NCBI GenBank assembly: GCA_964020085.1
Contig: OZ026603.1
Location: forward strand, 9,229,926 to 9,293,925
DNA length: 64,000 bases
Direction: 5' to 3'
Source of the DNA: Micromussa lordhowensis
Taxonomy: Eukaryota > Cnidaria > Anthozoa > Scleractinia > Lobophylliidae
A program made the translations under genes and the position numbers. Position 1 is the stretch's first letter. Each line of letters begins with the position of its first letter. Shown in pieces: positions 4,502 through 34,900 of this stretch. Under the pieces are notes generated by a model, which was not told where the DNA came from, did not search any database, and worked only from the letters and a program-made list of their open reading frames with translations.

Positions 4502-5338
4502 ATGGAAGCATTGTCTTTCGCAATTCCTTTCAAATATGCGGCAATGGTTGCCCTACTTTGTTTCTCATCTGCTGCTGTAAGCGATGGTTGTACTTACAAA
4601 GGTGACTGCGATGTGAACTACGTCTGCTGCGACGGCGAATGTGTTTACGGATCAAGTTGTGTCGGCCATTACTGTTCGTTTCCTTCTGATTGCTCTAGCG
4701 GAGAGAGTTGTTGTAGACAGTCATGTGTCTCCAGTTCAAGTTGTGTCGGTCGTTACTGTTTGTCTGATTCCGATTGCTCCAGCGGAGAGAGTTGTTGTAG
4801 CAGCCAATGCCATGATGGAACCGACTGTATCGGGTTGTCGTGTAGTTCCTACAGCTCTGATTGCGGAAATTGGGAAACCTGTTGTCAGGGGACTTGCCAG
4901 GATGTATATGACAGTTGTGTTGATGTTGCCGCAGCCGTAATTGCAAGCTCAGTAATTGGTTCCCTTGTTTTCATCTGCATGATCTCCATGTGTATTTTCT
5001 TCGCTCGGCGTCGGCGGAGAACAATTCAGGGCAGAGTTATAGTAGGGCAGAGAGTTACAGCAACAACTGCCACTACCACCAGATATGCAACCCAGGCAAA
5101 CCCACCTTACCAGGGACAGGCTCCACCATCCTATAGCTACCAACAAGGTCATCCATATTACCCCTTACCACAACCTGAACAGCAGCAGCAGACAGCCAAT
5201 CCTCCACCATACAGCACTGGAACAATGCCAGGGAGTGAACAACCTCCCCCTTACTCTACAGAACCACAGGAAGCATCAGGGGGAGTATATGCTCCTAAAC
5301 CCTCTTATGGCACCATACCATCAGCACCCCCTGTCTAG
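4502..5338 (+). CDS. Cys-rich single-pass membrane protein with PPxY tail (family copy 2)
   Basis: This is a 278-residue intronless protein. Residues 1-28 form the signal peptide and 30-139 hold four cysteine modules. The second module (about 53-80) has the pattern C-x4-C-x5-C-x5-CC-x3-C followed by serines. It is the clear parent of the 120-fold array in the next paralogue. Residues about 142-167 form the transmembrane helix, followed by the basic ARRRRR. The tail has three PPxY motifs (PPSY 208, PPPY 234 and 248), a QQQQ run and the shared ending YGTIPSAPPV. The ATG at 4502 is chosen because the signal peptide follows it directly and because it aligns with the start of the copy at 9186. It is probably functional, with no defect visible. 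Biological function is unknown. Confidence 0.82.
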   Translation: MEALSFAIPFKYAAMVALLCFSSAAVSDGCTYKGDCDVNYVCCDGECVYGSSCVGHYCSFPSDCSSGESCCRQSCVSSSSCVGRYCLSDSDCSSGESCCSSQCHDGTDCIGLSCSSYSSDCGNWETCCQGTCQDVYDSCVDVAAAVIASSVIGSLVFICMISMCIFFARRRRRTIQGRVIVGQRVTATTATTTRYATQANPPYQGQAPPSYSYQQGHPYYPLPQPEQQQQTANPPPYSTGTMPGSEQPPPYSTEPQEASGGVYAPKPSYGTIPSAPPV

Positions 5339-9185: not shown

Positions 9186-10973
9186 ATGGAAGCATTGTCT
9201 CTCGCGATTCCCTTCAAAAACGCGGCAATGGTTGCCCTGCTTTGTTTCTCATTTGCTACTGTAAGCGATGGTTGTACTTACAACGGTGACTGCGATGTGA
9301 ACCAAGTCTGCTGCGGCGGCATATGTGCTTACGGATCAAGTTGTGTCGGCCATTACTGTTGGTCTGATTCTGATTGCTCTAGCGGAGAGAGTTGTTGTAG
9401 GCAGTCATGTGTCTCCAGTTCAAGTTGTGTCGGCCATTACTGTTGGTCTGATTCTGATTGCTCTAGCGGAGAGAGTTGTTGTAGGCAGTCATGTGTCTCC
9501 AGTTCAAGTTGTGTCGGCCATTACTGTTGGTCTGATTCTGATTGCTCTAGCGGAGTTAGTTGTTGTAGGCAGTCATGTGTCTCCAGTTCAAGTTGTGTCG
9601 GCCATTACTGTTGGTCTGATTCTGATTGCTCTAGCAGAGAGAGTTGTTGTAGGCAGTCATGTGTCTCCAGTTCAAGTTGTGTCGGCCATTACTGTTGGTC
9701 TGATTCTGATTGCTCTAGCGGAGAGAGTTGTTGTAGGCAGTCATGTGTCTCCAGTTCAAGTTGTGTCGGCCATTACTGTTGGTCTGATTCTGATTGCTCT
9801 AGCGGAGACAGTTGTTGTAGGCAGTCATGTGTCTCCAGTTCAAGTTGTGTCGGCCATTACTGTTGGTCTGATTCTGATTGCTCTAGCAGAGAGAGTTGTT
9901 GTAGGCAGTCATGTGTCTCCAGTTCAAGTTGTGTCGGCCATTACTGTTGGTCTGATTCTGATTGCTCTAGCGGAGACAGTTGTTGTAGGCAGTCATGTGT
10001 CTCCAGTTCAAGTTGTGTCGGCCATTACTGTTGGTCTGATTCTGATTGCTCTAGCGGAGAGAGTTGTTGTAGGCAGTCATGTGTCTCCAGTTCAAGTTGT
10101 GTCGGCCATTACTGTTGGTCTGATTCTGATTGCTCTAGCGGAGACAGTTGTTGTAGGCAGTCATGTGTCTCCAGTTCAAGTTGTGTCGGCCATTACTGTT
10201 GGTCTGATTCTGATTGCTCTAGCAGAGAGAGTTGTTGTAGGCAGTCATGTGTCTCCAGTTCAAGTTGTGTCGGCCATTACTGTTGGTCTGATTCTGATTG
10301 CTCTAGCGGAGAGAGTTGTTGTAGGCAGTCATGTGTCTCCAGTTCAAGTTGTTCCGGTCGTTACTGTTGGTCTGATTCTGATTGCTCTAGCGGAGAGAGT
10401 TGTTGTAGGCAGTCATGTGTCTCCAGTTCAAGTTGTGTCGGCCATTACTGTTGGTCTGATTCTGATTGCTCTAGCGGAGACAGTTGTTGTAGGCAGTCAT
10501 GTGTCTCCAGTTCAAGTTGTGTCGGCCATTACTGTTGGTCTGATTCTGATTGCTCTAGCGGAGAGAGTTGTTGTAGGCAGTCATGCGTCTCCAGTTCAAG
10601 TTGTGTCGGCCATTACTGTTGGTCTGATTCTGATTGCTCTAGCGGAGAGAGTTGTTGTAGGCAGTCATGTGTCTCCAGTTCAAGTTGTTCCGGTCGTTAC
10701 TGTTGGTCTGATTCTGATTGCTCTAGCGGAGACAGTTGTTGTAGGCAGTCATGTGTCTCCAGTTCAAGTTGTGTCGGCCATTACTGTGGGTCTGATTTTC
10801 TGATTGCTCTAGCGGAGAGAGTTGTTGTAGGCAGTCATGTGTCTCCAGTTCAAGTTGTTCCGGTCGTTACTGTTGGTCTGATTCTGATTGCTCTAGCGGA
10901 GAGAGTTGTTGTAGGCAGTCATGTGTCTCCAGTTCAAGTTGTGTCAGCCATTACTGTTGGTCTGATTTTCTGA
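9186..10973 (+). CDS. Longest product readable from the array gene's own start (595 residues)
   Basis: Signal peptide residues 1-27, the first cysteine module, and then 17 perfect-frame 28-residue units (to about residue 535) can be read. The first +2 unit then moves translation into the second open frame. About 60 residues follow that are strongly hydrophobic (for example VTVGLILIALAERVVVG), and translation stops at the second +2 unit (…GLIF, stop). The product lacks the normal transmembrane helix and PPxY tail, although the shifted tail might itself insert in a membrane. Whether it is made is unknown. Confidence 0.45.
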   Translation: MEALSLAIPFKNAAMVALLCFSFATVSDGCTYNGDCDVNQVCCGGICAYGSSCVGHYCWSDSDCSSGESCCRQSCVSSSSCVGHYCWSDSDCSSGESCCRQSCVSSSSCVGHYCWSDSDCSSGVSCCRQSCVSSSSCVGHYCWSDSDCSSRESCCRQSCVSSSSCVGHYCWSDSDCSSGESCCRQSCVSSSSCVGHYCWSDSDCSSGDSCCRQSCVSSSSCVGHYCWSDSDCSSRESCCRQSCVSSSSCVGHYCWSDSDCSSGDSCCRQSCVSSSSCVGHYCWSDSDCSSGESCCRQSCVSSSSCVGHYCWSDSDCSSGDSCCRQSCVSSSSCVGHYCWSDSDCSSRESCCRQSCVSSSSCVGHYCWSDSDCSSGESCCRQSCVSSSSCSGRYCWSDSDCSSGESCCRQSCVSSSSCVGHYCWSDSDCSSGDSCCRQSCVSSSSCVGHYCWSDSDCSSGESCCRQSCVSSSSCVGHYCWSDSDCSSGESCCRQSCVSSSSCSGRYCWSDSDCSSGDSCCRQSCVSSSSCVGHYCGSDFLIALAERVVVGSHVSPVQVVPVVTVGLILIALAERVVVGSHVSPVQVVSAITVGLIF

Positions 10974-13900
10974 TTGCTCTAGCGGAGACAGTTGTTGTAG
11001 GCAGTCATGTGTCTCCAGTTCAAGTTGTGTCGGCCATTACTGTTGGTCTGATTCTGATTGCTCTAGCGGAGACAGTTGTTGTAGGCAGTCAGGTGTCTCC
11101 AGTTCAAGTTGTGTCGGCCATTACTGTTGGTCTAATTCTGATTGCTCTAGCGGAGACAGTTGTTGTAGGCAGTCATGTGTCTCCAGTTCAAGTTGTTCCG
11201 GTCGTTACTGTTGGTCTGATTCTGATTGCTCTAGCGGAGAGAGTTGTTGTAGGCAGTCATGTGTCTCCAGTTCAAGTTGTTCCGGTCGTTACTGTTGGTC
11301 TGATTCTGATTGCTCTAGCGGAGAGAGTTGTTGTAGGCAGTCATGTGTCTCCAGTTCAAGTTGTGTCGGCCATTACTGTTGGTCTGATTCTGATTGCTCT
11401 AGCGGAGACAGTTGTTGTAGGCAGTCATGTGTCTCCAGTTCAAGTTGTGTCGGCCATTACTGTTGGTCTGATTCTGATTGCTCTAGCAGAGAGAGTTGTT
11501 GTAGGCAGTCATGTGTCTCCAGTTCAAGATGTGTCGGCCATTACTGTTGGTCTGATTCTGATTGCTCTAGCGGAGAGAGTTGTTGTAGGCAGTCATGTGT
11601 CTCCAGTTCAAGTTGTGTCGGCCATTACTGTTGGTCTGATTCTGATTGCTCTAGCGGAGACAGTTGTTGTAGGCAGTCATGTGTCTCCAGTTCAAGTTGT
11701 GTCGGCCATTACTGTTGGTCTGATTCTGATTGCTCTAGCGGAGAGAGTTGTTGTAGGCAGTCATGTGTCTCCAGTTCAAGTTGTGTCGGCCATTACTGTT
11801 GGTCTGATTCTGATTGCTCTAGCGGAGAGAGTTGTTGTAGGCAGTCATGTGTCTCCAGTTCAAGTTGTTCCGGTCGTTACTGTTGGTCTGATTCTGATTG
11901 CTCTAGCGGAGAGAGTTGTTGTAGGCAGTCATGTGTCTCCAGTTCAAGTTGTGTCGGCCATTACTGTTGGTCTGATTCTGATTGCTCTAGCGGAGAGAGT
12001 TGTTGTAGGCAGTCATGTGTCTCCAGTTCAAGTTGTGTCGGCCATTACTGTTGGTCTGATTCTGATTGCTCTAGCGGAGAGAGTTGTTGTAGGCAGTCAT
12101 GCGTCTCCAGTTCAAGTTGTGTCGGCCATTACTGTTGGTCTGATTCTGATTGCTCTAGCGGAGAGAGTTGTTGTAGGCAGTCATGTGTCTCCAGTTCAAG
12201 TTGTTCCGGTCGTTACTGTTGGTCTGATTCTGATTGCTCTAGCGGAGACAGTTGTTGTAGGCAGTCATGTGTCTCCAGTTCAAGTTGTGTCGGCCATTAC
12301 TGTTGGTCTGATTTTCTGATTGCTCTAGCGGAGAGAGTTGTTGTAGGTAGTCATGTGTCTCCAGTTCAAGTTGTTCCGGTCGTTACTGTTGGTCTGATTC
12401 TGATTGCTCTAGCGGAGAGAGTTGTTGTAGGCAGTCATGTGTCTCCAGTTCAAGTTGTGTCAGCCATTACTGTTGGTCTGATTCTGATTGCTCTAGCGGA
12501 GAGAGTTGTTGTAGGCAGTCATGTGTCTCCAGTTCAAGTTGTGTCGGCCATTACTGTTGGTCTAATTCTGATTGCTCTAGCGGAGAGAGTTGTTGTAGGC
12601 AGTCATGTGTCTCCAGTTCAAGTTGTTCCGGTCGTTACTGTTGGTCTGATTCTGATTGCTCTAGCGGAGAGAGTTGTTGTAGGCAGTCATGTGTCTCCAG
12701 TTCAAGTTGTGTCAGCCATTACTGTTGGTCTGATTTTCTGATTGCTCTAGCGGAGACAGTTGTTGTAGGCAGTCATGTGTCTCCAGTTCAAGTTGTGTCG
12801 GCCATTACTGTTGGTCTGATTCTCATTGCTCTAGCGGAGACAGTTGTTGTAGGCAGTCATGTGTCTCCAGTTCAAGTTGTGTCGGCCATTACTGTTGGTC
12901 TGATTCTGATTGCTCTAGCGGAGAGAGTTGTTGTAGGCAGTCATGTGTCTTCAGTTCAAGTTGTGTCGGCCATTACTGTTGGTCTGATTCTGATTGCTCT
13001 AGCGGAGAGAGTTGTTGTAGGCAGTCATGTGTCTCCAGTTCAAGTTGTGTCGGCCATTACTGTTGGTCTGATTCTGATCGCTCTAGCGGAGGAGAGAGTT
13101 GTTGTAGGCAGTCATGTGTCTCCAGTTCAAGTTGTGTCGGCCATTACTGTTGGTCTGATTCTGATTGCTCTAGCGGAGACAGTTGTTGTAGGCAGTTATG
13201 TGTCTCCAGTTCAGGTTGTGTCGGCCATTACTGTTGGTCTGATTCTGATTGCTCTAGCGGAGACAGTTGTTGTAGGCAGTCATGTGTCTCCAGTTCAAGT
13301 TGTGTCGGACTCTACTGTTGGTCTGATTCTGATTGCTCTAGCGGAGAGAGTTGTTGTAGGCAGTCATGTGTCTCCAGTTCAAGTTGTGTCGGCCATTACT
13401 GTTGGTCTGATTCTCATTGCTCTAGCGGAGACAGTTGTTGTAGGCAGTCATGTGTCTCCAGTTCAAGTTTTGTCGGCCATTACTGTTGGTCTGATTCTGA
13501 TTGCTCTAGCGGAGACAGTTGTTGTAGGCAGTCATGTGTCTCCAGTTCAAGTTGTGTCGGCCATTACTGTTGGTCTGATTCTGATTGCTCTAGCGGAGAC
13601 AGTTGTTGTAGGCAGTCATGTGTCTCCAGTTCAAGTTCCGGGCGTTACTGTTGGTCTGATTCTGATTGCTCTAGCGGAGAGAGTTGTTGTAGGCAGTCAT
13701 GTGTCTCCAGTTCAAGTTGTGTCGGCCATTACTGTTGGTCTGATTCTGATTGCTCTAGCGGAGAGAGTTGTTGTAGGCAGTCATGTGTCTCCAGTTCAAG
13801 TTGTGTCGGCCATTACTGTTGGTCTGATTCTGATTGCTCTAGCGGAGAGAGTTGTTGTAGGCAGTCATGTGTCTCCAGTTCAAGTTGTGTCGGCCATTAC

Positions 13901-16900
13901 TGTTGGTCTGATTCTGATTGCTCTAGCGGAGACAGTTGTTGTAGGCAGTCATGTGTCTCCAGTTCAAGTTGTGTCGGCCATTACTGTTGGTCTGATTCTG
14001 TTTGCTCTAGCGGAGACAGTTGTTGTAGGCAGTCATGTGTCTCCAGTTCAAGTTCCGGGCGTTACTGTTGGTCTGATTCTGATTGCTCTAGCGGAGACAG
14101 TTGTTGTAGGCAGTCATGTGTCTCCAGTTCAAGTTGTGTCGGCCATTACTGTTGGTCTGATTCTGATTGCTCTAGCGGAGAGAGTTGTTGTAGGTAGTCA
14201 TGTGTCTCCAGTTCAAGTTGTTCCGGTCGTTACTGTTGGTCTGATTCTGATTGCTCTAGCGGAGAGAGTTGTTGTAGGCAGTCATGTGTCTCCAGTTCAA
14301 GTTGTGTCAGCCATTACTGTTGGTCTGATTCTGATTGCTCTAGCGGAGAGAGTTGTTGTAGGCAGTCATGTGTCTCCAGTTCAAGTTGTGTCGGCCATTA
14401 CTGTTGGTCTAATTCTGATTGCTCTAGCGGAGAGAGTTGTTGTAGGCAGTCATGTGTCTCCAGTTCAAGTTGTTCCGGTCGTTACTGTTGGTCTGATTCT
14501 GATTGCTCTAGCGGAGAGAGTTGTTGTAGGCAGTCATGTGTCTCCAGTTCAAGTTGTGTCAGCCATTACTGTTGGTCTGATTTTCTGATTGCTCTAGCGG
14601 AGAGAGTTGTTGTAGGCAGTCATGTGTCTCCAGTTCAAGTTGTGTCGGCCATTACTGTTGGTCTGATTCTGATTGCTCTAGCGGAGACAGTTGTTGTAGG
14701 CAGTCATGTGTCTCCAGTTCAAGTTGTGTCGGCCATTACTGTTGGTCTGATTCTGATTGCTCTAGCGGAGAGAGCTGTTGTAGGCAGTCATGTGTCTTCA
14801 GTTCAAGTTGTGTCGGCCATTACTGTTGGTCTGATTCTGATTGCTCTAGCGGAGAGAGTTGTTGTAGGCAGTCATGTGTCTCCAGTTCAAGTTGTGTCGG
14901 CCATTACTGTTGGTCTGATTCTGATCGCTCTAGCGGAGGAGAGAGTTGTTGTAGGCAGTCATGTGTCTCTAGTTCAAGTTGTGTCGGCCATTACTGTTGG
15001 TCTGATTCTGATTGCTCTAGCGGAGACAGTTGTTGTAGGCAGTTATGTGTCTCCAGTTCAAGTTGTGTCGGCCATTACTGTTGGTCTGATTCTGATTGCT
15101 CTAGCGGAGACAGTTGTTGTAGGCAGTCATGTGTCTCCAGTTCAAGTTGTGTCGGACTCTACTGTTGGTCTGATTCTGATTGCTCTAGCGGAGAGAGTTG
15201 TTGTAGGCAGTCATGTGTCTCCAGTTCAAGTTGTGTCGGCCATTACTGTTGGTCTGATTCTCATTGCTCTAGCGGAGACAGTTGTTGTAGGCAGTCATGT
15301 GTCTCCAGTTCAAGTTGTGTCGGCCATTACTGTTGGTCTGATTCTGATTGCTCTAGCGGAGACAGTTGTTGTAGGCAGTCATGTGTCTCCAGTTCAAGTT
15401 GTGTCGGCCATTACTGTTGGTCTGATTCTGATTGCTCTAGCGGAGAGAGTTGTTGTAGGCAGTCATGTGTCTCCAGTTCAAGTTGTGTCGGCCATTACTG
15501 TTGGTCTGATTCTGATTGCTCTAGCGGAGAGAGTTGTTGTAGGCAGTCATGTGTCTCCAGTTCAAGTTGTGTCGGCCATTACTGTTGGTCTGATTCTGAT
15601 TGCTCTAGCGGAGACAGTTGTTGTAGGCAGTCATGTGTCTCCAGTTCAAGTTGTGTCGGCCATTACTGTTGGTCTGATTCTGTTTGCTCTAGCGGAGACA
15701 GTTGTTGTAGGCAGTCATGTGTCTCCAGTTCAAGTTCCGGGCGTTACTGTTGGTCTGATTCTGATTGCTCTAGCGGAGACAGTTGTTGTAGGCAGTCATG
15801 TGTCTCCAGTTCAAGTTGTGTCGGCCATTACTGTTGGTCTGATTCTGATTGCTCTAGCGGAGAGAGTTGTTGTAGGCAGTCATGTGTCTCCAGTTCAAGT
15901 TGTGTCGGCCATTACTGTTGGTCTGATTCTGATTGCTCTAGTGGAGAGAGTTGTTGTAGGCAGTCATGTGTCTCCAGTTCAAGTTGTGTCGGCCATTACT
16001 GTTGGTCTGATTCTGATTGCTCTAGTGGAGACAGTTGTTGTAGGCAGTCATGTGTCTCCAGTTCAAGTTGTGTCGGCCATTACTGTTGGTCTGATTCTGA
16101 TTGCTCTAGTGGAGAGAGTTGTTGTAGGCAGTCATGTGTCTCCAGTTCAAGTTGTTCCGGTCGTTACTGTTGGTCTGATTCTGATTGCTCTAGCGGAGAG
16201 AGTTGTTGTAGGCAGTCATGTGTCTCCAGTTCAAGTTGTGTCGGCCATTACTGTTGGTCTGATTCTGATTGCTCTAGCGGAGACAGTTGTTGTAGGCAGT
16301 CATGTGTCTCCAGTTCAAGTTGTGTCGGCCATTACTGTTGGTCTGATTCTGATTGCTCTAGCGGAGACAGTTGTTGTAGGCAGTCATGTGTCTCCAGTTC
16401 AAGTTGTGTCGGCCATTACTGTTGGTCTGATTCTGATTGCTCTAGCGGAGACAGTTGTTGTAGGCAGTCATGTGTCTCCAGTTCAAGTTGTGTCGGCCAT
16501 TACTGTTGGTCTGATTCTGATTGCTCTAGCGGAGAGAGTTGTTGTAGGCAGTCATGTGTCTCCAGTTCAAGTTGTTCCGGTCGTTACTGTTGGTCTGATT
16601 CTGATTGCTCTAGCGGAGACAGTTGTTGTAGGCAGTCATGTGTCTCCAGTTCAAGTTGTTCCGGTCGTTACTGTTGGTCTGATTCTGATTCCTCTAGCGG
16701 AGACAGTTGTTGTAGGCAGTCATGTGTCTCCAGTTCAAGTTGTTCCAGTCGTTACTGTTGGTCTGATTCTGATTGCTCTAGCGGAGAGAGTTGTTGTAGG
16801 CAGTCATGTGTCTCCAGTTCAAGTTGTGTCGGCCATTGCTGTTGGTCTGATTCTGATTGCTCTAGCGGAGAGAGTTGTTGTAGGCAGTCATGTGTCTCCA

Positions 16901-19437
16901 GTTCAAGTTGTTCCGGTCGTTACTGTTGGTCTGATTCTGATTGCTCTAGCGGAGAGAGTTGTTGTAGGCAGTCATGTGTCTCCAGTTCAAGTTGTGTCGG
17001 CCATTACTGTTGGTCTGATTCTGATTGCTCTAGCGGAGACAGTTGTTGTAGGCAGTCATGTGTCTCCAGTTCAAGTTGTGTCGGCCATTACTGTTGGTCT
17101 GATTCTGATTGCTCTAGCGGAGACAGTTGTTGTAGGCAGTCATGTGTCTCCAGTTCAAGTTCCGGGCGTTACTGTTGGTCTGATTCTGATTGCTCTAGCG
17201 GAGAGAGTTGTTGTAGGCAGTCATGTGTCTCCAGTTCAAGTTGTGTCGGCCATTACTGTTGGTCTGATTCTGATTGCTCTAGCGGAGAGAGTTGTTGTAG
17301 GCAGTCATGTGTCTCCAGTTCAAGTTGTGTCGGCCATTACTGTTGGTCTGATTCTGATTGCTCTAGCGGAGAGAGTTGTTGTAGGCAGTCATGTGTCTCC
17401 AGTTCAAGTTGTGTCGGCCATTACTGTTGGTCTGATTCTGATTGCTCTAGCGGAGACAGTTGTTGTAGGCAGTCATGTGTCTCCAGTTCAAGTTGTGTCG
17501 GCCATTACTGTTGGTCTGATTCTGTTTGCTCTAGCGGAGACAGTTGTTGTAGGCAGTCATGTGTCTCCAGTTCAAGTTCCGGGCGTTACTGTTGGTCTGA
17601 TTCTGATTGCTCTAGCGGAGACAGTTGTTGTAGGCAGTCATGTGTCTCCAGTTCAAGTTGTGTCGGCCATTACTGTTGGTCTGATTCTGATTGCTCTAGC
17701 GGAGAGAGTTGTTGTAGGCAGTCATGTGTCTCCAGTTCAAGTTGTGTCGGCCATTACTGTTGGTCTGATTCTGATTGCTCTAGTGGAGAGAGTTGTTGTA
17801 GGCAGTCATGTGTCTCCAGTTCAAGTTGTGTCGGCCATTACTGTTGGTCTGATTCTGATTGCTCTAGTGGAGACAGTTGTTGTAGGCAGTCATGTGTCTC
17901 CAGTTCAAGTTGTGTCGGCCATTACTGTTGGTCTGATTCTGATTGCTCTAGTGGAGAGAGTTGTTGTAGGCAGTCATGTGTCTCCAGTTCAAGTTGTTCC
18001 GGTCGTTACTGTTGGTCTGATTCTGATTGCTCTAGCGGAGAGAGTTGTTGTAGGCAGTCATGTGTCTCCAGTTCAAGTTGTGTCGGCCATTACTGTTGGT
18101 CTGATTCTGATTGCTCTAGCGGAGACAGTTGTTGTAGGCAGTCATGTGTCTCCAGTTCAAGTTGTGTCGGCCATTACTGTTGGTCTGATTCTGATTGCTC
18201 TAGCGGAGACAGTTGTTGTAGGCAGTCATGTGTCTCCAGTTCAAGTTGTGTCGGCCATTACTGTTGGTCTGATTCTGATTGCTCTAGCGGAGACAGTTGT
18301 TGTAGGCAGTCATGTGTCTCCAGTTCAAGTTGTGTCGGCCATTACTGTTGGTCTGATTCTGATTGCTCTAGCGGAGACAGTTGTTGTAGGCAGTCATGTG
18401 TCTCCAGTTCAAGTTGTTCCGGTCGTTACTGTTGGTCTGATTCTGATTGCTCTAGCGGAGACAGTTGTTGTAGGCAGTCATGTGTCTCCAGTTCAAGTTG
18501 TTCCGGTCGTTACTGTTGGTCTGATTCTGATTCCTCTAGCGGAGACAGTTGTTGTAGGCAGTCATGTGTCTCCAGTTCAAGTTGTTCCAGTCGTTACTGT
18601 TGGTCTGATTCTGATTGCTCTAGCGGAGAGAGTTGTTGTAGGCAGTCATGTGTCTCCAGTTCAAGTTGTGTCGGCCATTACTGTTGGTCTGATTCTGATT
18701 GCTCTAGCGGAGAGAGTTGTTGTAGGCAGTCATGTGTCTCCAGTTCAAGTTGTTCCGGTCGTTACTGTTGGTCTGATTCTGATTGCTCTAGCGGAGAGAG
18801 TTGTTGTAGGCAGTCATGTGTCTCCAGTTCAAGTTGTGTCGGCCATTACTGTTGGTCTGATTCTGATTGCTCTAGCGGAGACAGTTGTTGTAGGCAGTCA
18901 TGTGTCTCCAGTTCAAGTTGTGTCGGCCATTACTGTTGGTCTGATTCTGATTGCTCTAGCGGAGACAGTTGTTGTAGGCAGTCATGTGTCTCCAGTTCAA
19001 GTTCCGGGCGTTACTGTTGGTCTGATTCTGATTGCTCTAGCGGAGAGAGTTGTTGTAGGCAGTCATGTGTCTCCAGTTCAAGTTGTGTCGGCCATTACTG
19101 TTGGTCTGATTCTGATTGCTCTAGCGGAGAGAGTTGTTGTAGGCAGTCATGTGTCTCCAGTTCAAGTTGTGTCGGCCATTACTGTTGGTCTGATTCTGAT
19201 TGCTCTAGCGGAGAGAGTTGTTGTAGGCAGTCATGTGTCTCCAGTTCAAGTTGTGTCGGCCATTACTGTTGGTCTGATTCTGATTGCTCTAGCGGAGAGA
19301 GTTGTTGTAGGCAGTCATGTGTCTCCAGTTCAAGTTGTGTCGGCCATTACTGTTGGTCTGATTCTGATTGCTCTAGCGGAGAGAGTTGTTGTAGGCAGTC
19401 ATGTGTCTCCAGTTCAAGTTGTTCCGGTCGTTACTGT
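9360..19437 (+). repeat. Tandem array of 120 units x 84 bp (28-residue cysteine module)
   Basis: The period is 84 bp, measured between successive GGTCTGATTCTGATT words. From the first unit tryptophan codon (9360) to the last (19438) is 10,078 bp. Correcting for five +2, two +3 (extra GAG near 13088 and 14938) and six -3 variants gives 10,080 bp, exactly 120 units. Unit protein pattern: C-x4-C-x5-C-x5-CC-x3-C-x5. Recurrent variants are GHYC/GRYC, GESC/GDSC/RESC, and a -3 form that reads SSSSGRYC and loses one cysteine (near 13636, 14051, 15736, 17160, 17578 and 19003). One further unit has Cys to Gly (near 11091). Copies are almost identical, which implies recent expansion or ongoing homogenisation. 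Confidence 0.95.
12729..19437 (+). repeat. Higher-order repeat of 22 units (about 1.84-1.85 kb) inside the array
   Basis: Rare unit variants recur at a fixed distance. Examples are the +2 unit (12729 and 14576), 'gtcggactctac' (13308 and 15155), the extra GAG (about 13088 and 14937), the CTAGTGGAG triplet of units (first at 15941 and 17783) and 'gattcctctagc' (16691 and 18533). The spacings are 1847 or 1842 bp. Each equals 22 x 84 after correcting for indels. The array thus grew by copying blocks of 22 units as well as single units. Confidence 0.85.
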
Positions 19438-20537
19438 TTGTCTGATTCCGATTGCTCTAGCGGAGAGAGTTGTTGTAGCAGCCAATGCCATGATAGATCC
19501 GACTCTATCGGGTTGTCGTGTAGTTCCTACAGCTCTGATTGCGGAAATTGGGAAACCTGTTGTCAGGGGACTTGCCAGGATGTATATGACAGTTGTGTTG
19601 ATGTTGCCGCAGCCGTAATTGCAAGCTCAGTAATTGTTTTCATCTGCATGATCTCCAAGTGTATTTTCTTTACTCGGCGTCGGAGAGTTATAGTAGGACA
19701 GAGAGTTACAGCAACAACTGCCACCACCACCAGATATGCAACCCAGGCAAACCCACCTTACCAGGGACAGGCTCCACCATCCTATAGCTACCAACAAGGT
19801 CATCCATATTACCCCTTACCACAACCTGAACAGCAGCAGCAGACAGCCAATCCTCCACCATACAACCCTGGAACAATTCCAGGGAGTGAACAACCTCCCC
19901 CTTACTCTACAGAACCACAGAGAGTATCAGGGGGTGTATATTCTCCTAAACCCTCTTATGATGCCATACCAGTAGCACCTGCTGTCTAGCACAACCACAA
20001 GCAAAGCTCAGTTGTGACAGCTACATTTTACAATACCTCACAATATATTAGTATCTTTTATATAATATCTTGAATTGTTGTTGCATTTTGATTGAGTGTC
20101 ATAAACCAAAACCAAACCAATTACTTACCAATTTGAGTTCTCACTCTGCCATGCAATCGCAAACCATAGCAAAGCCAAAACCAAAAGCAAAGTAGTTAAT
20201 TACTCAGGGCCGGGTTGTTCTAAGCCCGATTAAGCTAACCCAGGATTAGCGAGAATTTTGATTTCTGTTGTGCAATGTTTCAGAGAGATTTTCTGTTTGT
20301 ACTAGTGTTTGGCTGTGTCTTTGGAATTTGAATAATCTCAAACTAACCAAAAAATAGGAAGTTAAAAACATTTTTATGCAAGAAAAATTAATGCTTCAGT
20401 TAACTTTTATCATTACCAGTTGCTGGGCTTCTTTATTTTATCACTGTCTTCGTTCCAGTGACCGTTCACTAAAACGAGTTGACCCCGTAGGCTTGGGAGA
20501 AATATGTACAGTTACAAAGCAAAATTGCCCATTGCAG

Positions 20538-22467: not shown

Positions 22468-23202
22468 ATGGCAGCAGTTTTTTTGGTAACCCACTCCAAA
22501 CACCCAGCGCTATTTGCCGTGATTACTTTCTCGTTCATCATTGCTGTGACTGACGGGTGTACCTACGACACTGACTGCCCCTATATCACAAGCCAAGTGT
22601 GCTGCAACGGTGAATGTGTTTACGACTCAAGCTGTGTCGGTCGCTACTGTACGTCTGATTCCAATTGTTCCAGCGATGAAAGTTGTTGCAGCAGCGAATG
22701 CGAATACGGCGACTGCTTAGGTTCTACTTGTTCTAACGACACTGACTGTGGAGTTTTCGAAAGATGCTGTTACGAAACCTGCCAAGACACATATGAAGAA
22801 TGTCACAAACCAGCTGGTTCTGCAGGCGTTATTGCTGGTGCAATAATTGGTTCATTCTGTTTCTCATTGTGCCTGATCGGCGGGTGTAAATATTACTGCC
22901 GGTTAAGCAGCTCTGATAGTGAGCAAACTCACTCAAACACAAGACAGGTAGTACAGACCACCCCACCCCTGACAGTAACGTCAACCACTTATACTAGATG
23001 TGTAGTACAGCGCTCCATCCAACAAGCCTACCCATACCAGCCCCCGCCTCGGCAGACGACCAATCGTCCACCAAAGATTGATAATACATTGGCAGCGAGT
23101 AGACGACCTCCCCCTTACAATGCAATACCACAAGGAAGATCAGGGGGACTATATGCTCCTCAAACCTCTTATGGTGCTGTACAGTCAGCAGAAGTTGTCT
23201 AG
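22468..23202 (+). CDS. Cys-rich single-pass membrane protein with PPxY tail (family copy 4)
   Basis: This is a 244-residue intronless protein. The signal peptide is about residues 1-29 (a longer N-terminus than the other copies), and three to four cysteine modules cover residues 31-112. A transmembrane helix lies at about 118-140, with a short basic/cysteine segment after it. The tail has one PPPY (214-217) and the family ending GGLYAPQTSYGAVQSA. It is the most diverged paralogue, since the tail lacks most PPxY motifs and the Gln-rich stretch. The ATG at 22468 gives the first strongly hydrophobic leader; no better downstream start is seen. Function is unknown; location at the plasma membrane is inferred. 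Confidence 0.78.
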   Translation: MAAVFLVTHSKHPALFAVITFSFIIAVTDGCTYDTDCPYITSQVCCNGECVYDSSCVGRYCTSDSNCSSDESCCSSECEYGDCLGSTCSNDTDCGVFERCCYETCQDTYEECHKPAGSAGVIAGAIIGSFCFSLCLIGGCKYYCRLSSSDSEQTHSNTRQVVQTTPPLTVTSTTYTRCVVQRSIQQAYPYQPPPRQTTNRPPKIDNTLAASRRPPPYNAIPQGRSGGLYAPQTSYGAVQSAEVV

Positions 23203-25984: not shown

Positions 25985-28900
25985 TTACAACTGAGCATCG
26001 TCACAGTAAGAACCAGTTTTACAAACTTGTAGGTTAGAGGTTCCAGCCTCTAATGTCACGTTAGCTGCCGATTCAGTGTCACTCATCATAGGAGAGGAAT
26101 AAGATACATTCTAGAGAAAGACATGCAAAAGAATAAACTGACATAATATTTATGTATAAAAAAATTGAGGAAGCATTTGACAGTCCTTTTCTAATCTACA
26201 CAAACCTGACAAACATTATTTTTACATGATTGCAAGTATCAAGTGAAAAGCTCAAGTAAATTCTGAAGGGACCACGTCAGGTGCAACATATTCCACACAT
26301 AATTAAACTGAAAGTATGGCTCAAGAAGTTGAAGAAAATCAACCTTTGAAACTATTGATATAATTGGCACATACCGGTATCCCTGTTTGCATCTCCCCCC
26401 CCCCCCCCCATAAGAAAGTAAAGTTTTTGCACATTTAAAATAGACTCAAATTGAAACCGTAATGATTGTCAAGTGTAAATTGAGCTCACATTATGTCATG
26501 GCAACCATATTGGTGTCCCAAAATAATAAAATGGTAGCCATGTTGCTGTCCCAAACTAATCCTGTGGAGTTGAACTCTTTTCTTTTGCTATGCGCAATAA
26601 ATTTGTATGGCTGCTGGCCATACCAGTACAAAGACATAAATAAACTTACATCAGATTGAATTCCAACAGCATGCGTAACTGCATCATGCACAGACACAAA
26701 TAGATGCTCAGTTCCTATCCGTGCAGTAAAGCCAGCTTTCTCTAGCATTTCTCGTATGTAGTCTATGCAGGAGTTAAACAAAATAAAGGATTATTAGACT
26801 GAATATAGTCAAACCTACCATAAGTCGGTAATGGGAGGTGGTCGCTTATGAGAGCTTAGATCATATTGGGTCAAAATTTGGCCTCATTAGCATAAGGTAA
26901 CTGCAGACACTTACCCCATGTTTTATTCATGTGAAAAGTCAATTTAAAAAAAAATGCAGTACTTCCCATTGAGACATTTCTGTCTCTTGTACAACCCAGG
27001 AATGTGAATCTACAATCTGCATATTTCAAGATTTTGGTGAGGCAGTGGCATGAATCTGACCAATATACCTTGCACATAACTAATTTTTTTTGTCTGCACA
27101 ATTATTAATAAGGAAAAAACAATAACTTACATCTGCAGTGTGCCAAGTAGAATTTTACCCCAATTTTTTCATATTCTACACCAAGCTACAGAAAAAGACA
27201 GATCAATATAATTATGTAAAATTCTTAATACAAGAATTCAAAATAGTAGGATTTATAATTATTTGCTTACTCATAGGTAAAGAGAATGAGCAAACCATGA
27301 CACCAAATAACTATAGAGAGATCAAAATACTATAAGTACCGGTAAATGAATATCAATTTATAAAACTAAAGTAGAATAACTTCTACTTGACTTTCTGTTG
27401 TTGGTATGCTCAGTGACAGGAAAACAAATTTCAAATAGTCTAATCAAATATTTCAATAAAATATTGACAATAAAATTGACAGTTACTTGTGATAATTCAT
27501 TGTTCGTAGCTAGTCTTACACAGCACTTTCATCTCGTCCCAGCCGAGGGACTCTTCAGAGACCGTTCTGCTTGGCAAACACACTAAGCGTCATGTCTAAA
27601 GCCCTGTTCGCTAACCAAATGGTGACAGCAATCTTGCCTTATATAGCAGAAGGATTCCCAACTGCACAGATTCACAAGTGAAAATTGACAATAAAGTTGG
27701 CAGTTACTTGTGATAATGCATTATTAAAATAATATTATATCATTATTATTGTATTTAAAAAAAAGCCTGTTGAATATTTACTCAGAGAAAACTACATTTC
27801 TGGCAGTTCTCATGGCTCACCTGCAATAAGGTGTTCACGCCTTGAGTATCGATAAAATTAAATGTACTGGCATCAACAATGATGGCATGAACTGGCACAG
27901 AATCCTGCTCCCCAGATGCACCATCAGAGTTTGCAAGATCACTCAAGGAAACCTCTACATCCTGAAGGACATGTTCATATGAAAAAAATACACTTTCAAT
28001 TAATGTAACTGTACATGTGTACCTATTATCCTGAATGAATTGAAAAATAAAAATTGTACAGTTTATTATTCTAAGATGTCTACCTGCAAATTCTTTTACA
28101 AAGTGCAACTCGACAATAATTACCCCGTTCTCCAGAGATCTGTTGACCTGGGCTCTTCTTGGAATTTCTATGGTAGCGCTTCCAGTATCCTCCATGTTAC
28201 TACTTCTGTGGTAATAAACTGAATTACCAACACTACTGCCATGCTTGTTTGGATTTTGTGGATCGACCCCGGTCATTTCTATCAGTGTTCTGCGGAAGTA
28301 CTCTGCATTGGCATAAAACATGGCAGACTGAAATCGAAAAATCTTCACTCCAGGAATTGGCTTTGCCTGAAAGAAATACATGTATGTAAATACAGCATCC
28401 AAATATATGGCTAGAGATGGCTAAATGGCAAGAGATTGCTATTAAGGTCATAAATCCACACATTTTAGCAGTTTCACATATTACCCCTCCCCCCACCCCC
28501 AAAAAAGAAAACATACACCATATTATTTTAACATTACAAAATACATCAATGTCAAATTTGACTCACCATACCCTATAAACCCACTCAAATTTTCTTTATC
28601 ATGCCTCTCTCTTCAACCCAAATAAGAAAACTAAACAGAAAAGTCAATACTATTCCAGTTGAAAATCCTTCACAATCTGCCTTGACAATGTCACTTCTAG
28701 TAACATGTATCAATAGGTACCTGCCTTCAGAACTAAAACTAGAGCATCTTGAGTGATAGTCACTTACTGACGGTATCCTATGAAGATCTCTATAAATTCC
28801 TGTATTGGGAATTTGACCGAGAAGTTCTGCTGGTGGTCTGAAAGGTTCAACATTATAATCTTTCAATATAAACAGGAAATGAAAATTATTTATTAAAACA

Positions 28901-31900
28901 CACTACAGCATGGTTGAGTTCAGAGCTTACTTGGATCATCTTTGAGTCACAGACTCACCTGTTATTTAAATCTGAGATAAGAAATTTATCCCTGTCCAAA
29001 ACAACCGTTCAATCATTTCTTTTTCAAGTATCTCCCCCTCCACCCCACCCAAACACACACACACCCAAAGGTCTTTCACATGGGTGAGCCCCAATGGGAA
29101 ACCCAGTGGAGCCACTACTGATTAAGGACAATTTTTGTAAATAGTAAATTGTAAATAGTTTTACTATTTTACAGTAAATAGTAAATTGCTTGTCTCTTTA
29201 CTTTTGGCATTGTAAACATCATTGTTTTTCGTAACAAGTGTTTTCTTTTTTCTTGCCCTGTTGTAATATTAGCTTTTAACTTTGTTGCATATATATCTAT
29301 CTATATTTCTACTTATTACGTTTTCTATTTAATACACATGACCGTAATTGAATTAATAATACACATGAAAAAATTACTCGATTCTGATAGGCTGAGAGCA
29401 GTGCAGTTCAAGTGTAACACCAGTGCAAAAAGTGTAACACCGGTGCAAAAAGTGTAACACCACTGCAAATTACACATCGTAATTCTGGATGATGATTGGC
29501 AGAAAAGACAATGAGAAATTTTGTAGGCAAGTGATATCTTGTAAAGCAGTGACAAAAATTTAGTACGAAAACTCTGAAAAAAGTTTTCTCGAATGTGAAA
29601 AAAATGGCTTCAAGAAACATCTTCCGGCAATTTTTCTGCACAAATTTTTTCATGTTTGTATGTTTGTATTATTAATAAGTAATCATACGGTTTTTCTCGT
29701 TCAATTTGAAATTAATTTGCACGTGTGAGTTTTTCAAAAAGCTGAAATTGCACGAGCCGAAAACCTCACTCGTGCAAATTAACTCCAAATTGAACTCGAA
29801 ACCGTATGATTACCTATACTAATTGTTTCTCATAGATAGCTGCTTTATTTTTTAGCTGCATGGTTGTTATAGGCAGATAATACCATATTTATAAGCTTCA
29901 AATCAATGTTTTTTTTCTTCTAATCATTTTTTTTTCTGGTATAAATAAATGCTGTCACTTTCTTTTCTGACCTTGATGACTTCCAAATCACAACTACGAG
30001 TGCCATCACCACGCCAACACCCAATCCAATATCAATACCAAGCAATACGACTCCCAGCCAAGCTGCAAACCAAACAACCTTCAAGAGATAGTAGCAAATT
30101 TGTATCGATAGCATCATTAGCTTGGCATGGAATAATGCAATAGTATAATGAAGAGGCCTCATTAAGGGCTGAGCACCAGGCAAACTGAGCGACTGTGAAG
30201 ATGATTTTGCCACCTGGTTTAATAGTATAGTTTCGAATTCCCCGCTCCTTCTAAGAAACCGCTGGAACTTAGTGTTGTAGGCGCAACTTCCGCATCAGGA
30301 CGAGGCTAACCCTGTATTCCTTGCTTTTCCTCATTTCGCTGTTGTTCTTGTTTATGAACTAGACTGAAGTAAAAGGAGGGTTTGGAAAATGGACCAAGAA
30401 AAAGGCGAAAAAAGTCATCTAAGGAAACAAGGAAGCCGTGGAAAACAGTGTGCTGCAGCCGAATGCAATAGTTTTGAGTATAACCATGATGGAAGTAGTT
30501 CGGGTTTACACTTCTTTAAATTTCCAACCAAGAACCCAGCAAAAAGACGTTGGTGTAATTTGATAAAACGTCAAGATGGACGAGACGGTTTTCGTGTAAA
30601 TAAGAACACTGTTATTTGCGAAAAGCATTTTAGGAAACAGGAGATAATCAGGGGTCTTGGGGGAGTGAGGTGCAGATTGAGTAAAGGTAAGGTATCACAA
30701 TAATTGTTTATGTAATACAGATTTTGTATAACAGTTGCATATTGATTACTACATGTATAAGATTGTATTTATATGGAGATCTACTTAATTGGGGCTGGAG
30801 AATTGTACAGATAACGTTAATCTTTTGTTGTCTAACTTGTAAAAAATAAAACAGTTCATGGTCCTTGTCCTTTGTACATGTTTGTATTATTTAGGTGCTG
30901 TAGTGCACGTGAACTCTACGTTATTATTCTCAACACTGAAAACCTTCTCTCAAGGGATTTACTACAGAAAAACATTTTAATACTTCCTAAGTGTAAATTT
31001 TATAATTTTTGCTTTTTTATTTTACTTTTATTTTAATTTAAATTTCCAAATATAAAATCAGATCGTAGAGTGAGAGACTCACCGCAAGCAAAGAGAAACC
31101 CAGCCATAGTATAGATGCAAAAAAAAAATTGTTTGTATACACTACTTTCATTGAGCTCCAAAATAAAAGTAAAAAGCAGTTTTGTGAAGCACTGTACTCA
31201 GGTTGGTTTTCTCTCGTGTGTTGTTTCTACATACAATGCTGCAAAGGTTTAAATCAATATCTATTGCTGCATCAATGCTATAAAATTCACATTTTTAATG
31301 TAGGAGTGGAACCATCAATATTTAACTGGTCAGTTTCGACATCTCTGCCTCGGAAACCTCCAAAGGATCGAAGCTCTTCAACACATACCAGTACGTCTCC
31401 TTCAGGTGCAGTAGAGAAAGCAGTGATGTCCTGGATGGAGATGGATGTGAAATCCACATGTCCTTGTGGTGCTGAAGAGGTAGCAGTGATGTCAAAATGT
31501 ATTGAGAAAGAGGCAGATTCAACACCATGCCAGTTGTCAGTTTCGACACCTCTGCCACAGAAACCTGCAACAGATGGAAGATACACAACACATACCAGTA
31601 CATGTATGTCAGCTTCAGGTGCAGATGAGAAAGCAGTGGTGTCATGTATTGAGGATGCAGATTTCACATCCACATGCCCTTCAGGTTCTGAAGAGCTAGA
31701 TGGCAGTGATGTCCACATGTATTGAGAAAGATGGATATTTTGAATCCAAAGAAGCTGAGGTATAGTTAGAACATGCTTGCTTTAAAACTTACTAGAAATC
31801 TGCATAACTCTTTGGTAAGATTTAGGTTAAAGGTGTTAGTTGGAATTTCCCCAAATGGCCAAGTGATTTTTGTATCAAAGTTATGGGGTGGTAGGGTTTC

Positions 31901-34900
31901 TGATAAGTGCATAACACAAAAGTCTGGGTTTCTTCAGTGTCTTAAGCCTGGGGATAATGTCATGGCTGATCGTGGGTTTGAAATAACTGATATTTTACCA
32001 CCAGGTGTTGGCCTTAATATACCTCCATTCAAAGGTGCCAGGGCCCAACTAACAGCTGAAGAAGTGACTGAAACTGTTCATATTGCTTCCGTCCGAATTC
32101 ACGTTGAGCGGGCAATAGGGAGAATCAAGAATTACCACCTCCTTGATGGCACTCTACCATTGACCCTGGCCCATATTGCAGATCAAATATTTTCAGTGTG
32201 TGCCTACCTAACCAATTTTTTGCCTCCCCTTCTCTCCCCCCCCATAAAAGAATGTAAAAGGGGAGGCTTGGGTATGAGTCTATTACAATAACAATGTACT
32301 TTATTAAGGCACCTTTCAATAATGTGCAACTGTAGCAATGAACACATAATCTAACAAGGCATCTATTATATCTCACAAAAGGAAAATTCATTTCAACAGG
32401 CTCTACAGGCAATGAAATATGCCTGTGGAATTTGTGATAAGTTGGTTTTGACTTACTTCTCTTTTATAGTTGGTTGTTTTAGGGTAATTTGATTTCTAAC
32501 ATGACAAATGGACACTAAATTGTATGTACTCTCAAAGTTTGTTGCGTGTTACTGAAAGGTCAGTCAACCCTATTAGTGCCCAGTGGCACATAGGACTTCT
32601 TACTTAAGGTGCAGTATAACGTTTAATACCTTTTAATTTGATGTTACCTTACGTAAGCCGAATAAAAGGTTACCAGTACCTGTACCTACTTTACATGTCA
32701 AGTGTTTTTTTCTGTTGTCAGTATCCATGAAATAAAGGTAGTCTAGTAAGCAACAGTAATTATTTCAAACAGATTGTACTTTTTTTCACTCCGAGGGCTT
32801 TGTCCTTTGATCTCCGTGATGCGAGTCAAAAATTGTACTTGCCGAAACCGAGAACTGATTACCTGAAGCGTAGTTTCAGTTATAGCGGAGCTTATCTTTG
32901 GAACGATCTCCCTGAGGATATCCGCACTACAAAATCTTTAAGCAACTTTAAAAGAAGAATCGATAAATGGCTCTCTGTATCGGACTCCCACACGGCAAAT
33001 ATGTAAACCAGTAAATAGAAAATTTTATTTAAGAACTTCTATTGTTATACTGATATTTTTACCGTGTTTTAAATAAAGATTTCATTCATTCATTCAACTG
33101 TCAACTTACAACAATATCAGGGATTTCTATTCAGACACCTGACTTCTTTAAGCTGCAACAGACAATTCTCCTTGCATTTCACACTAATAAATGTGCAAAA
33201 TAAGAGAAATTCTTTCAACACCATCCTTTTGTTAATTACTTTTTATGTACTGTTTAGAAGCTTTTCCAACCCCCATGGGCATAAAGTTTGACACCCCGCT
33301 CAATTCTGCGAGTGAAAAATTCAGGAAGGAAAGCTTGCTTATAGAAAAAATCTAGCCTGGGCAGTACTGTTTGGTGCCACCACTCTTTGTTAAAATAAAT
33401 TTGTTCAATAAAAATTTTATTACCTCCAAACCACACAACAAAATCTACCCATTCTAAATTGCAGACATACATTTGACCTTGAACTTGATAATAGTATTTA
33501 TGACCAAACTTAAGCTTAGGAACCCTATCATCATCAATATATAAACAAAAGTTTAGATCTTTACATGCTTGTTCAACTGTCATTCCCCTCTTACAGTACA
33601 GGCATTTAACTTCTAGACCTCCAATTTTCATGCCAGTAGCCTTTGGGTCATACACCTTTCGGTCCAGACTTGCACCATAGCCTTTCTTTGGATAACGTTG
33701 TTCCAACTTCCTCTACCCACAAAAAAGTATTTCCCTTGGCAGCTTTTGCAGCAACATAGCTTGCAACAGCATCACCCTCGTGTTGCTGGCCATACTCTAA
33801 AGTTGCTATACTTTTCTTTTTTTCAGAGATGTACATTATGTTTTTTAGAAGTTTGTCAGGCTCTTTCCGCCTTACAGCTGCATTATAAAAATTAGAGGCT
33901 GTTAACTTGTCACGTTTTAGTTGCCTCCAAACTTTATTGTTACTTTGCCCCCTTGTTAATCATTCAACTGTTTTTATGTCCACATCTGAAATACTCTGAG
34001 TATCAGCAAAGCAATCCATCATGCTTCTAAAGTGTGAGGATGATATATCATAATCATCATTAAAATTAATGGTAATTCTGTGATGTTTTCAGTAACAATA
34101 TCATGGGCATTTTCAGGAACTGCTTCACAAATGGAGTCGATTGCAACGTTTTCATCAGCAATTGGCTCTGTAGAAACATTATGAAACAAAAAATAGCAGC
34201 TGCTTTGTAAGCAGTTACCTAGTTCAGCTGAAAGTCGACTTAGTGCTTCTGGGTTGACTTTCCTATCTGCTGGTGCCCTGGGGTCATACAGACTGACTTT
34301 GGCACATTTATCAGTTTCCTTACCAAATCGATATTTAGTGATGACTATATCATTTACTGGTTTAGGGTCCACTTGGACATTTCTGGGAGCATTCCAGCTA
34401 CAGAGTCTTGAGGTACAAGAAAGTGGCTCTTGATGTTCTTTAAGTCCCCGACGACAGAAATCTTCAATAGCAAATAGTATGCCACCAACATGATTACAGT
34501 GCCCTAGGCCATCTACACCTCTCCTAGAATATAATCACAAGAAGCAATTTGGTATTTGATAAATATGTTTGGATTTTCTATAACAAGCAATAATTAAATA
34601 CAATAAAGAGAATGTTGTCATTTTCAAATCTCATTATTATTCCTTCCCTAAAATGCATGTAGCATCATCAGAGTGTTTTGGGCATATCCAATTATTCCTC
34701 CCATTTATGAAACCTCCTCATCCTTGCAAAAAAAAAAATGCATTTGTCCCTTACCCTGCTGGACACTGGCACGCAGCTTTCAACACTTCTCCAAAATGGC
34801 TCATTGAAATCATGACCTTGTACTTCTGCTACTTCATTGAGGCTAATACTTCTCCTTTAACGAAAGTAATTCCGCCTTTTGCACCAATATGCGTCTTCCT

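Follow-up and report, generated by a model that had tools for sequence, protein, structure and literature searches.

The gene family and its copies in the window

The window, which is the whole 64,000-nucleotide stretch of Micromussa lordhowensis DNA analysed here, contains four forward-strand copies of one membrane-protein gene family, starting at 955, 4502, 9186 and 22468. All but the copy at 9186 are intact single open reading frames (ORFs):

955 to 1680, forward: paralogue 1, 241 amino acids, with a signal-peptide-like start, three modules, a membrane segment and a PPxY tail; the same as P0002 of the public protein set
4502 to 5338, forward: paralogue 2, 278 amino acids, four modules, intact; the closest copy in the window to the array gene at 9186
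22468 to 23202, forward: paralogue 4, 244 amino acids, three modules, intact; identical to P0049

In each of these three copies the cysteine modules, the membrane segment and the PPxY tail lie in one ORF. Counting by a cysteine pattern gives three modules, each C-C-CC-C-C, for the copies at 955 and 22468 and four for the copy at 4502, in agreement with an earlier reading of the DNA (hereafter, the sequence-only reading) that had assigned three to four modules to the neighbouring copies. The 4502 copy harbors three PPxY motifs, its predicted structure consists of one hairpin per module and a single long helix (142-176), and its best match in the public set has 72% identity. P0002 and P0049, which correspond to copies 1 and 4, are found on separate public contigs of 329,681 and 205,174 bases, and another assembly may break or differ in this region.

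Relatives of these genes encode a signal peptide, mostly three to five WAP-like modules, one membrane helix and a PPxY tail, and the named ones are all from stony corals (Oculina patagonica, Desmophyllum pertusum and Stylophora pistillata). Three to five modules are present in 47 of 58 family proteins, and none of the 71 proteins counted by the cysteine pattern has more than seven. An alignment of 43 sequences was made from P0001 and 42 of its 57 matches, with 15 fused, short or distant matches excluded, and of the 24 ectodomain cysteine columns of P0001, 18 do not vary across this alignment. The plan of ectodomain, helix and PPxY tail is common to CYYR1 and Shisa-like proteins, suggesting that the intact copies are probably small transmembrane adaptors, with a disulfide-rich ectodomain and an inner PPxY motif that would bind WW-domain ubiquitin ligases.

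Several other features are present in the window. A Ty3/gypsy-type element (39339-45144, forward) has successive ORFs that encode reverse transcriptase, RNase H and integrase domains, together with capsid-like and zinc-knuckle matches below the cut-off, and an ORF with a THAP domain is followed by a DDE_Tnp_4 transposase ORF at 30368-32291 (forward). On the reverse strand, a STAS domain and a sub-threshold Sulfate_transp match, at 27782-28420 and 50964-51371, may be parts of one or two SLC26-type genes, and a YqaJ-like viral recombinase domain at 33254-33712 is likewise sub-threshold (21.1 bits, cut-off 22). Two tandem pairs of 52-bp repeats at 2037-2299 are mutually inverted, with 96 of 104 aligned positions in agreement, and are MITE-like. 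The motif TGACGTCA occurs five times in the window where 0.8 occurrences are expected, and as many were seen in 1 of 100 shuffles.

The array copy

The copy at 9186 is made up of three parts:

9186 to 9335, forward: head, with a signal-peptide-like start and module 1; 134 of 149 ungapped bases as in the 4502 copy
9336 to 19413, forward: array of 120 units with an 84-bp consensus, 10,078 bp in total, defined by TRF and by unit splitting
19414 to 19989, forward: tail, from module 3 to the stop; 550 of 576 ungapped bases as in the 4502 copy

The array is real as sequence, and it is extreme. TRF reports a tandem array at 9336-19478 with a period of 84, 120.8 copies, 96% matches and a score of 18539, and splitting at the unit starts yields 120 units followed by a terminal diverged module at 19414; the count of about 120 tandem 84-bp copies in the sequence-only reading is thus confirmed, as is its statement that the ends are those of neighbouring copies. 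Its arithmetic, in which the units closed exactly at 10,080 bp, is 2 bp too long. The unit lengths are 84 bp in 107 units, 81 bp in six, 86 bp in five and 87 bp in two, and the shortfall results from the five units with a 2-bp insertion together with the eight units of 81 or 87 bp. As 10,078 leaves a remainder of 1 when divided by three, the difference amounts to a frameshift that was absent from that reading. The unit consensus encodes 28 amino acids with six cysteines, 34 distinct unit sequences are present, and the motifs GTAAG, GTGAG and GTATG have zero occurrences within the array.

Head and tail are homologous to the P0001 family, and each is still open. Compared with the 4502 copy, the two together have a dS of 0.07 and a dN/dS of 0.79. 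The tail has lost one cysteine and carries in-frame deletions of 9 and 18 bp; nine amino acids are lost in or beside its membrane segment, and a lysine lies inside the segment or at its edge. The best 19-residue hydropathy mean of this altered segment is 2.54, versus 2.44 in the 4502 copy. Since both deletions are multiples of three and the segment is still hydrophobic, the tail may have kept its function until a short time ago. The motif TGACGT lies 113, 85 and 88 bp upstream of the start codons at 955, 4502 and 22468, respectively (window positions 842 and 4417 for the first two), and is missing from the 160 bp upstream of the ATG at 9186; having been spotted post hoc, its absence is weak evidence of decay.

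A broken reading frame

The interval 9186-19989 had been described as one gene, but no ORF spans the array. The frame is laid out as follows:

9186 to 10973, forward: the sole ORF from the gene's start codon, 595 amino acids, stop TGA at 10971
10764 to 10849, forward: unit 18, 86 bp, first 2-bp frameshift
10934 to 11019, forward: unit 20, 86 bp, second 2-bp frameshift
12280 to 12365, forward: unit 36, 86-bp frameshift unit that also has a CAG to TAG change
12702 to 12787, forward: unit 41, 86-bp frameshift unit, whose partner at a lag of 22 units is unit 63
14129 to 14212, forward: unit 58, TAG in its own unit register
14549 to 14634, forward: unit 63, 86 bp, last frameshift
14581 to 19989, forward: 3' open frame of 1802 amino acids, with units, module 3, membrane segment and PPxY tail

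Read from the ATG at 9186, the cysteine frame is left in unit 18. The 84-bp unit has a second open forward frame, which is hydrophobic, and the 595-amino-acid ORF thus consists of about 18 units in the cysteine frame followed by about two units in this second frame. All five 86-bp units (18, 20, 36, 41 and 63) carry an identical TT insertion, and the base change that gives unit 58 its TAG is also present in unit 36. Units 64-120 and the tail share one open frame, in which the single methionine is residue 1690 of 1802, inside the membrane segment. Cysteine modules, membrane segment and PPxY tail are all present in the DNA of the array copy, but the frame is broken between these parts. Relative to the parent-like copy the frame is disabled, as it would be in an unprocessed pseudogene.

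Growth of the array

Unit variants recur along the array with a spacing of 22 units. At this lag, identical sequences make up 34 of the 98 unit pairs (34.7%), whereas in 500 shuffles of the unit order no lag exceeded 25%. The most recent repetition is found near the 3' end:

15394 to 19077, forward: the two youngest 22-unit blocks (units 73-94 and 95-116), with 2 substitutions in 1842 aligned bases

The youngest pair has thus diverged by 0.11%. An older block pair, units 33-54 and 55-76, has 18 differences in 1847 bases (about 1%) and three gaps, and other 22-unit block pairs that were tried off that register are about 3 to 4% different. A weaker lag of 18 is present in units 1-45, with 2.5% divergence. 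Within the older block pair, the TT insertion is common to units 41 and 63, and units 45 and 67 have in common a 3-bp insertion and a Cys-to-Arg change. Unit 36 carries the TT insertion without a counterpart in its lag-22 partner, unit 58, indicating that this site changed again or was converted.

Unequal exchange, which had been suggested from the sequence alone, is well supported as the mode of growth by this recurrence of variants in 22-unit blocks, with pairs that differ by 0.11% and by about 1%. The proposal that the units derive from module 2 of the 4502 copy holds in part. This module is a close source, with about 5 of 84 bases different from the unit consensus, but 27 of the 120 units have T11C and A17G, bases with which module 3 of the array copy itself (19414) begins, indicating that sequence was exchanged between modules 2 and 3.

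As the 22-unit higher-order repeat has copied a frameshift, the array probably went on growing once the frame had been lost. The simplest order of events is that the frameshift came first and the block duplication later, in which case that step of growth would not have been driven by a full-length product. The main alternative to this order is gene conversion, which could have spread the frameshift after the block duplication, and this possibility, together with the mismatch between units 36 and 58, weakens the proposed order.

Variation among the units

The units differ by 31 types of substitution, of which 8 are synonymous, 22 are missense and 1 is a stop, with 10, 10 and 11 types at codon positions 1, 2 and 3. 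Types were scored against the commonest unit and each counted once, which treats linked changes and conversion as independent, and types from the 81-, 86- and 87-bp units depend on the alignment. The synonymous share (8/31) compares with a neutral expectation of 19 to 26%, which varies with the transition weight. In a binomial test of 8 synonymous types out of 30, with the stop type omitted, a transition weight of 2 and the 31 types forming a small and non-independent sample, a dN/dS of 0.3 or less is unlikely (p = 0.006), one of 0.5 is not rejected (p = 0.13), and one of 1 agrees with the data (p = 0.73).

Cysteines are affected as well. Four of the 31 types destroy a cysteine, and among the 115 readable units of 120, the five 86-bp frameshifted units being excluded, 12 have one cysteine missing, 102 have six and one has seven. 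Missense changes are also found in units 3, 4, 7 and 11, all within the 595-amino-acid ORF. Between the intact copies 4502 and 955, third positions account for 95 of 196 differences and dN/dS is 0.26; the other intact pairs have values of 0.62 and 0.48. The variation among the units looks neutral, as it would without a protein to protect.

A probable decayed duplicate and its alternatives

We consider it probable that the array copy is a recent duplicate that was turned by unequal exchange into a minisatellite, and that, on this haplotype at least, it has become a pseudogene. A recent tandem duplication of a coral-type single-pass membrane-protein gene resembling the 4502 copy would have provided two adjoining 84-bp modules as the substrate for unequal exchange. 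Module 2 would then have grown to about 120 copies, with later steps by whole 22-unit blocks, and the frame would have been broken by 2-bp insertions during this growth, at least one of which was duplicated together with a block. The array would now be drifting like a minisatellite. The array, its frameshifts, the neutral-looking variation, the block structure and the family architecture can all be seen directly, and loss of function, again at least on this haplotype, is most likely. The surface protein grown to 120 modules that the sequence-only reading had envisaged does not agree with five 2-bp insertions, a readable length of 595 amino acids, neutral-looking variation and lost cysteines, and there is no support for a giant allorecognition or adhesion protein.

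It is possible, but unlikely, that the gene is a living, length-variable surface protein that is in frame on other haplotypes, and that what was assembled here is a null allele or contains consensus errors. The open and little-diverged ends are consistent with this idea, as is the single frame shared by units 64-120 and the tail, and a precedent is described for LPA, in which stop and frameshift null alleles inside the kringle IV-2 repeats coexist in the population with a living gene (PMC7613587). Nevertheless, the unit variation looks neutral and cysteines have been lost, and the upstream TGACGT motif is missing. Random read error is also an unlikely source of the TT insertions, as these occur in five units, several of which also have linked variants, and are common to the lag-22 partners 41 and 63. 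We are more doubtful that the 595-amino-acid ORF is a real product, with a signal peptide, about 19 modules and a new hydrophobic C-terminus, either anchored without PPxY or secreted. The second open forward frame of the unit would allow for such a protein, its out-of-frame C-terminus has a 19-residue stretch with a mean hydropathy of 2.26 (the membrane segment of the 4502 copy reaches 2.44), and nonsense-mediated decay would probably not act on an unspliced transcript, given that the intact copies are single ORFs. However, the out-of-frame hydrophobicity could be due to chance, and the units show no sign of selection, with the missense changes in units 3, 4, 7 and 11 falling inside the supposed product.

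A bolder version, suggested by the open, hydrophobic second frame of the 84-bp unit, is that the frameshift made the module array its own membrane anchor or hydrophobic tail; this would yield a 595-amino-acid, approximately 19-module surface or secreted protein uncoupled from WW-domain ligases, with the other 100 units serving as a non-coding reservoir that shifts the switch point. We regard this as very improbable. Least probable of all is that some of the units are artefacts of assembly, produced by looping through near-identical 22-unit blocks. Such a loop might be suspected where the youngest blocks differ at just 2 of 1842 aligned bases, and the location of P0002 and P0049 on different contigs looks as if another assembly had broken between them. 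Yet 34 distinct units and an older block pair with about 1% divergence are unlike the product of one assembly loop, and about 98 units would be left even without one young block.

If the array copy is indeed a decayed duplicate, it provides a clear natural record of the passage from coding module to satellite, in which a duplicate gene, single-unit growth, 22-unit blocks and a frameshift carried along can be followed. A further lesson is that a surface-protein gene may contain a huge repeat whose period is divisible by three without necessarily encoding a huge protein. The gap between the family norm of at most seven modules (71 proteins counted) and about 120 in one copy is wide, and the locus would allow a direct test of length variation among coral colonies.

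Comparison with known systems

The WAP domain is an eight-cysteine four-disulfide core, whereas the 28-amino-acid unit has six cysteines. Scores for WAP (PF00095, cut-off 20.8) on the array reach 125.8 bits for 9186-10763 and 237.6 bits for P0003, which are sums over many repeat units; the best stretches begin at profile position 11 of 41, leaving positions 1-10 uncovered. The intact copies at 955 and 22468 score 13 and 18.2, both below the cut-off, and the 4502 copy has no WAP match in the profile search. Among the 43 aligned family members, 14 match WAP at E ≤ 0.01. Weak Pfam matches to Comm (4/43) and CYYR1 (1/43) are also found in this alignment, the Comm score of P0001 being under the curated cut-off.

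Commissureless-type proteins are described as short single-pass transmembrane adaptors with a PPxY tail, and CYYR1 and Shisa as short single-pass proteins that have a cysteine-rich ectodomain in addition to such a tail (PMC5578492). The PPxY motifs of CYYR1 bind the WW domains of WWP1 (PMC11399591), and Comm and Shisa proteins affect the trafficking of surface receptors (PMC5578492). The 4502 copy, with one predicted helix and a PPxY tail, resembles the Shisa-like STMC6 proteins in this respect, but the pattern given for them, C*C*CC*CC (PMC5578492), is not found in the modules here, which repeat C-C-CC-C-C. SCRiPs are a coral-restricted cysteine-rich family (PMC2652719) and, going by their description there, share these two properties with the present family but differ in being small and putatively secreted.

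The WD40 repeats of the Podospora het-d and het-e recognition proteins are, like the array, tandem repeats of very high identity, for which short-read assemblies are unreliable (PMC12222747). In functional het-d and het-e alleles the number of conserved repeats is usually 11, and diversifying selection acts on some of the sites (PMC12222747), whereas no such functional signal was found in the array. The closest parallel, by analogy, is the kringle IV-2 array of LPA. This array encodes kringle domains of a human plasma protein and is expressed, its repeat number being given as up to 40 in one statement and up to 80 in another of the same source (PMC7613587), whereas the coral array has a 28-amino-acid unit and no array-spanning ORF. 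LPA has itself been proposed to be an unprocessed pseudogene arising from a duplication of PLG (PMC6067813), and in both cases a disulfide module of a duplicated gene appears to have been multiplied in tandem.
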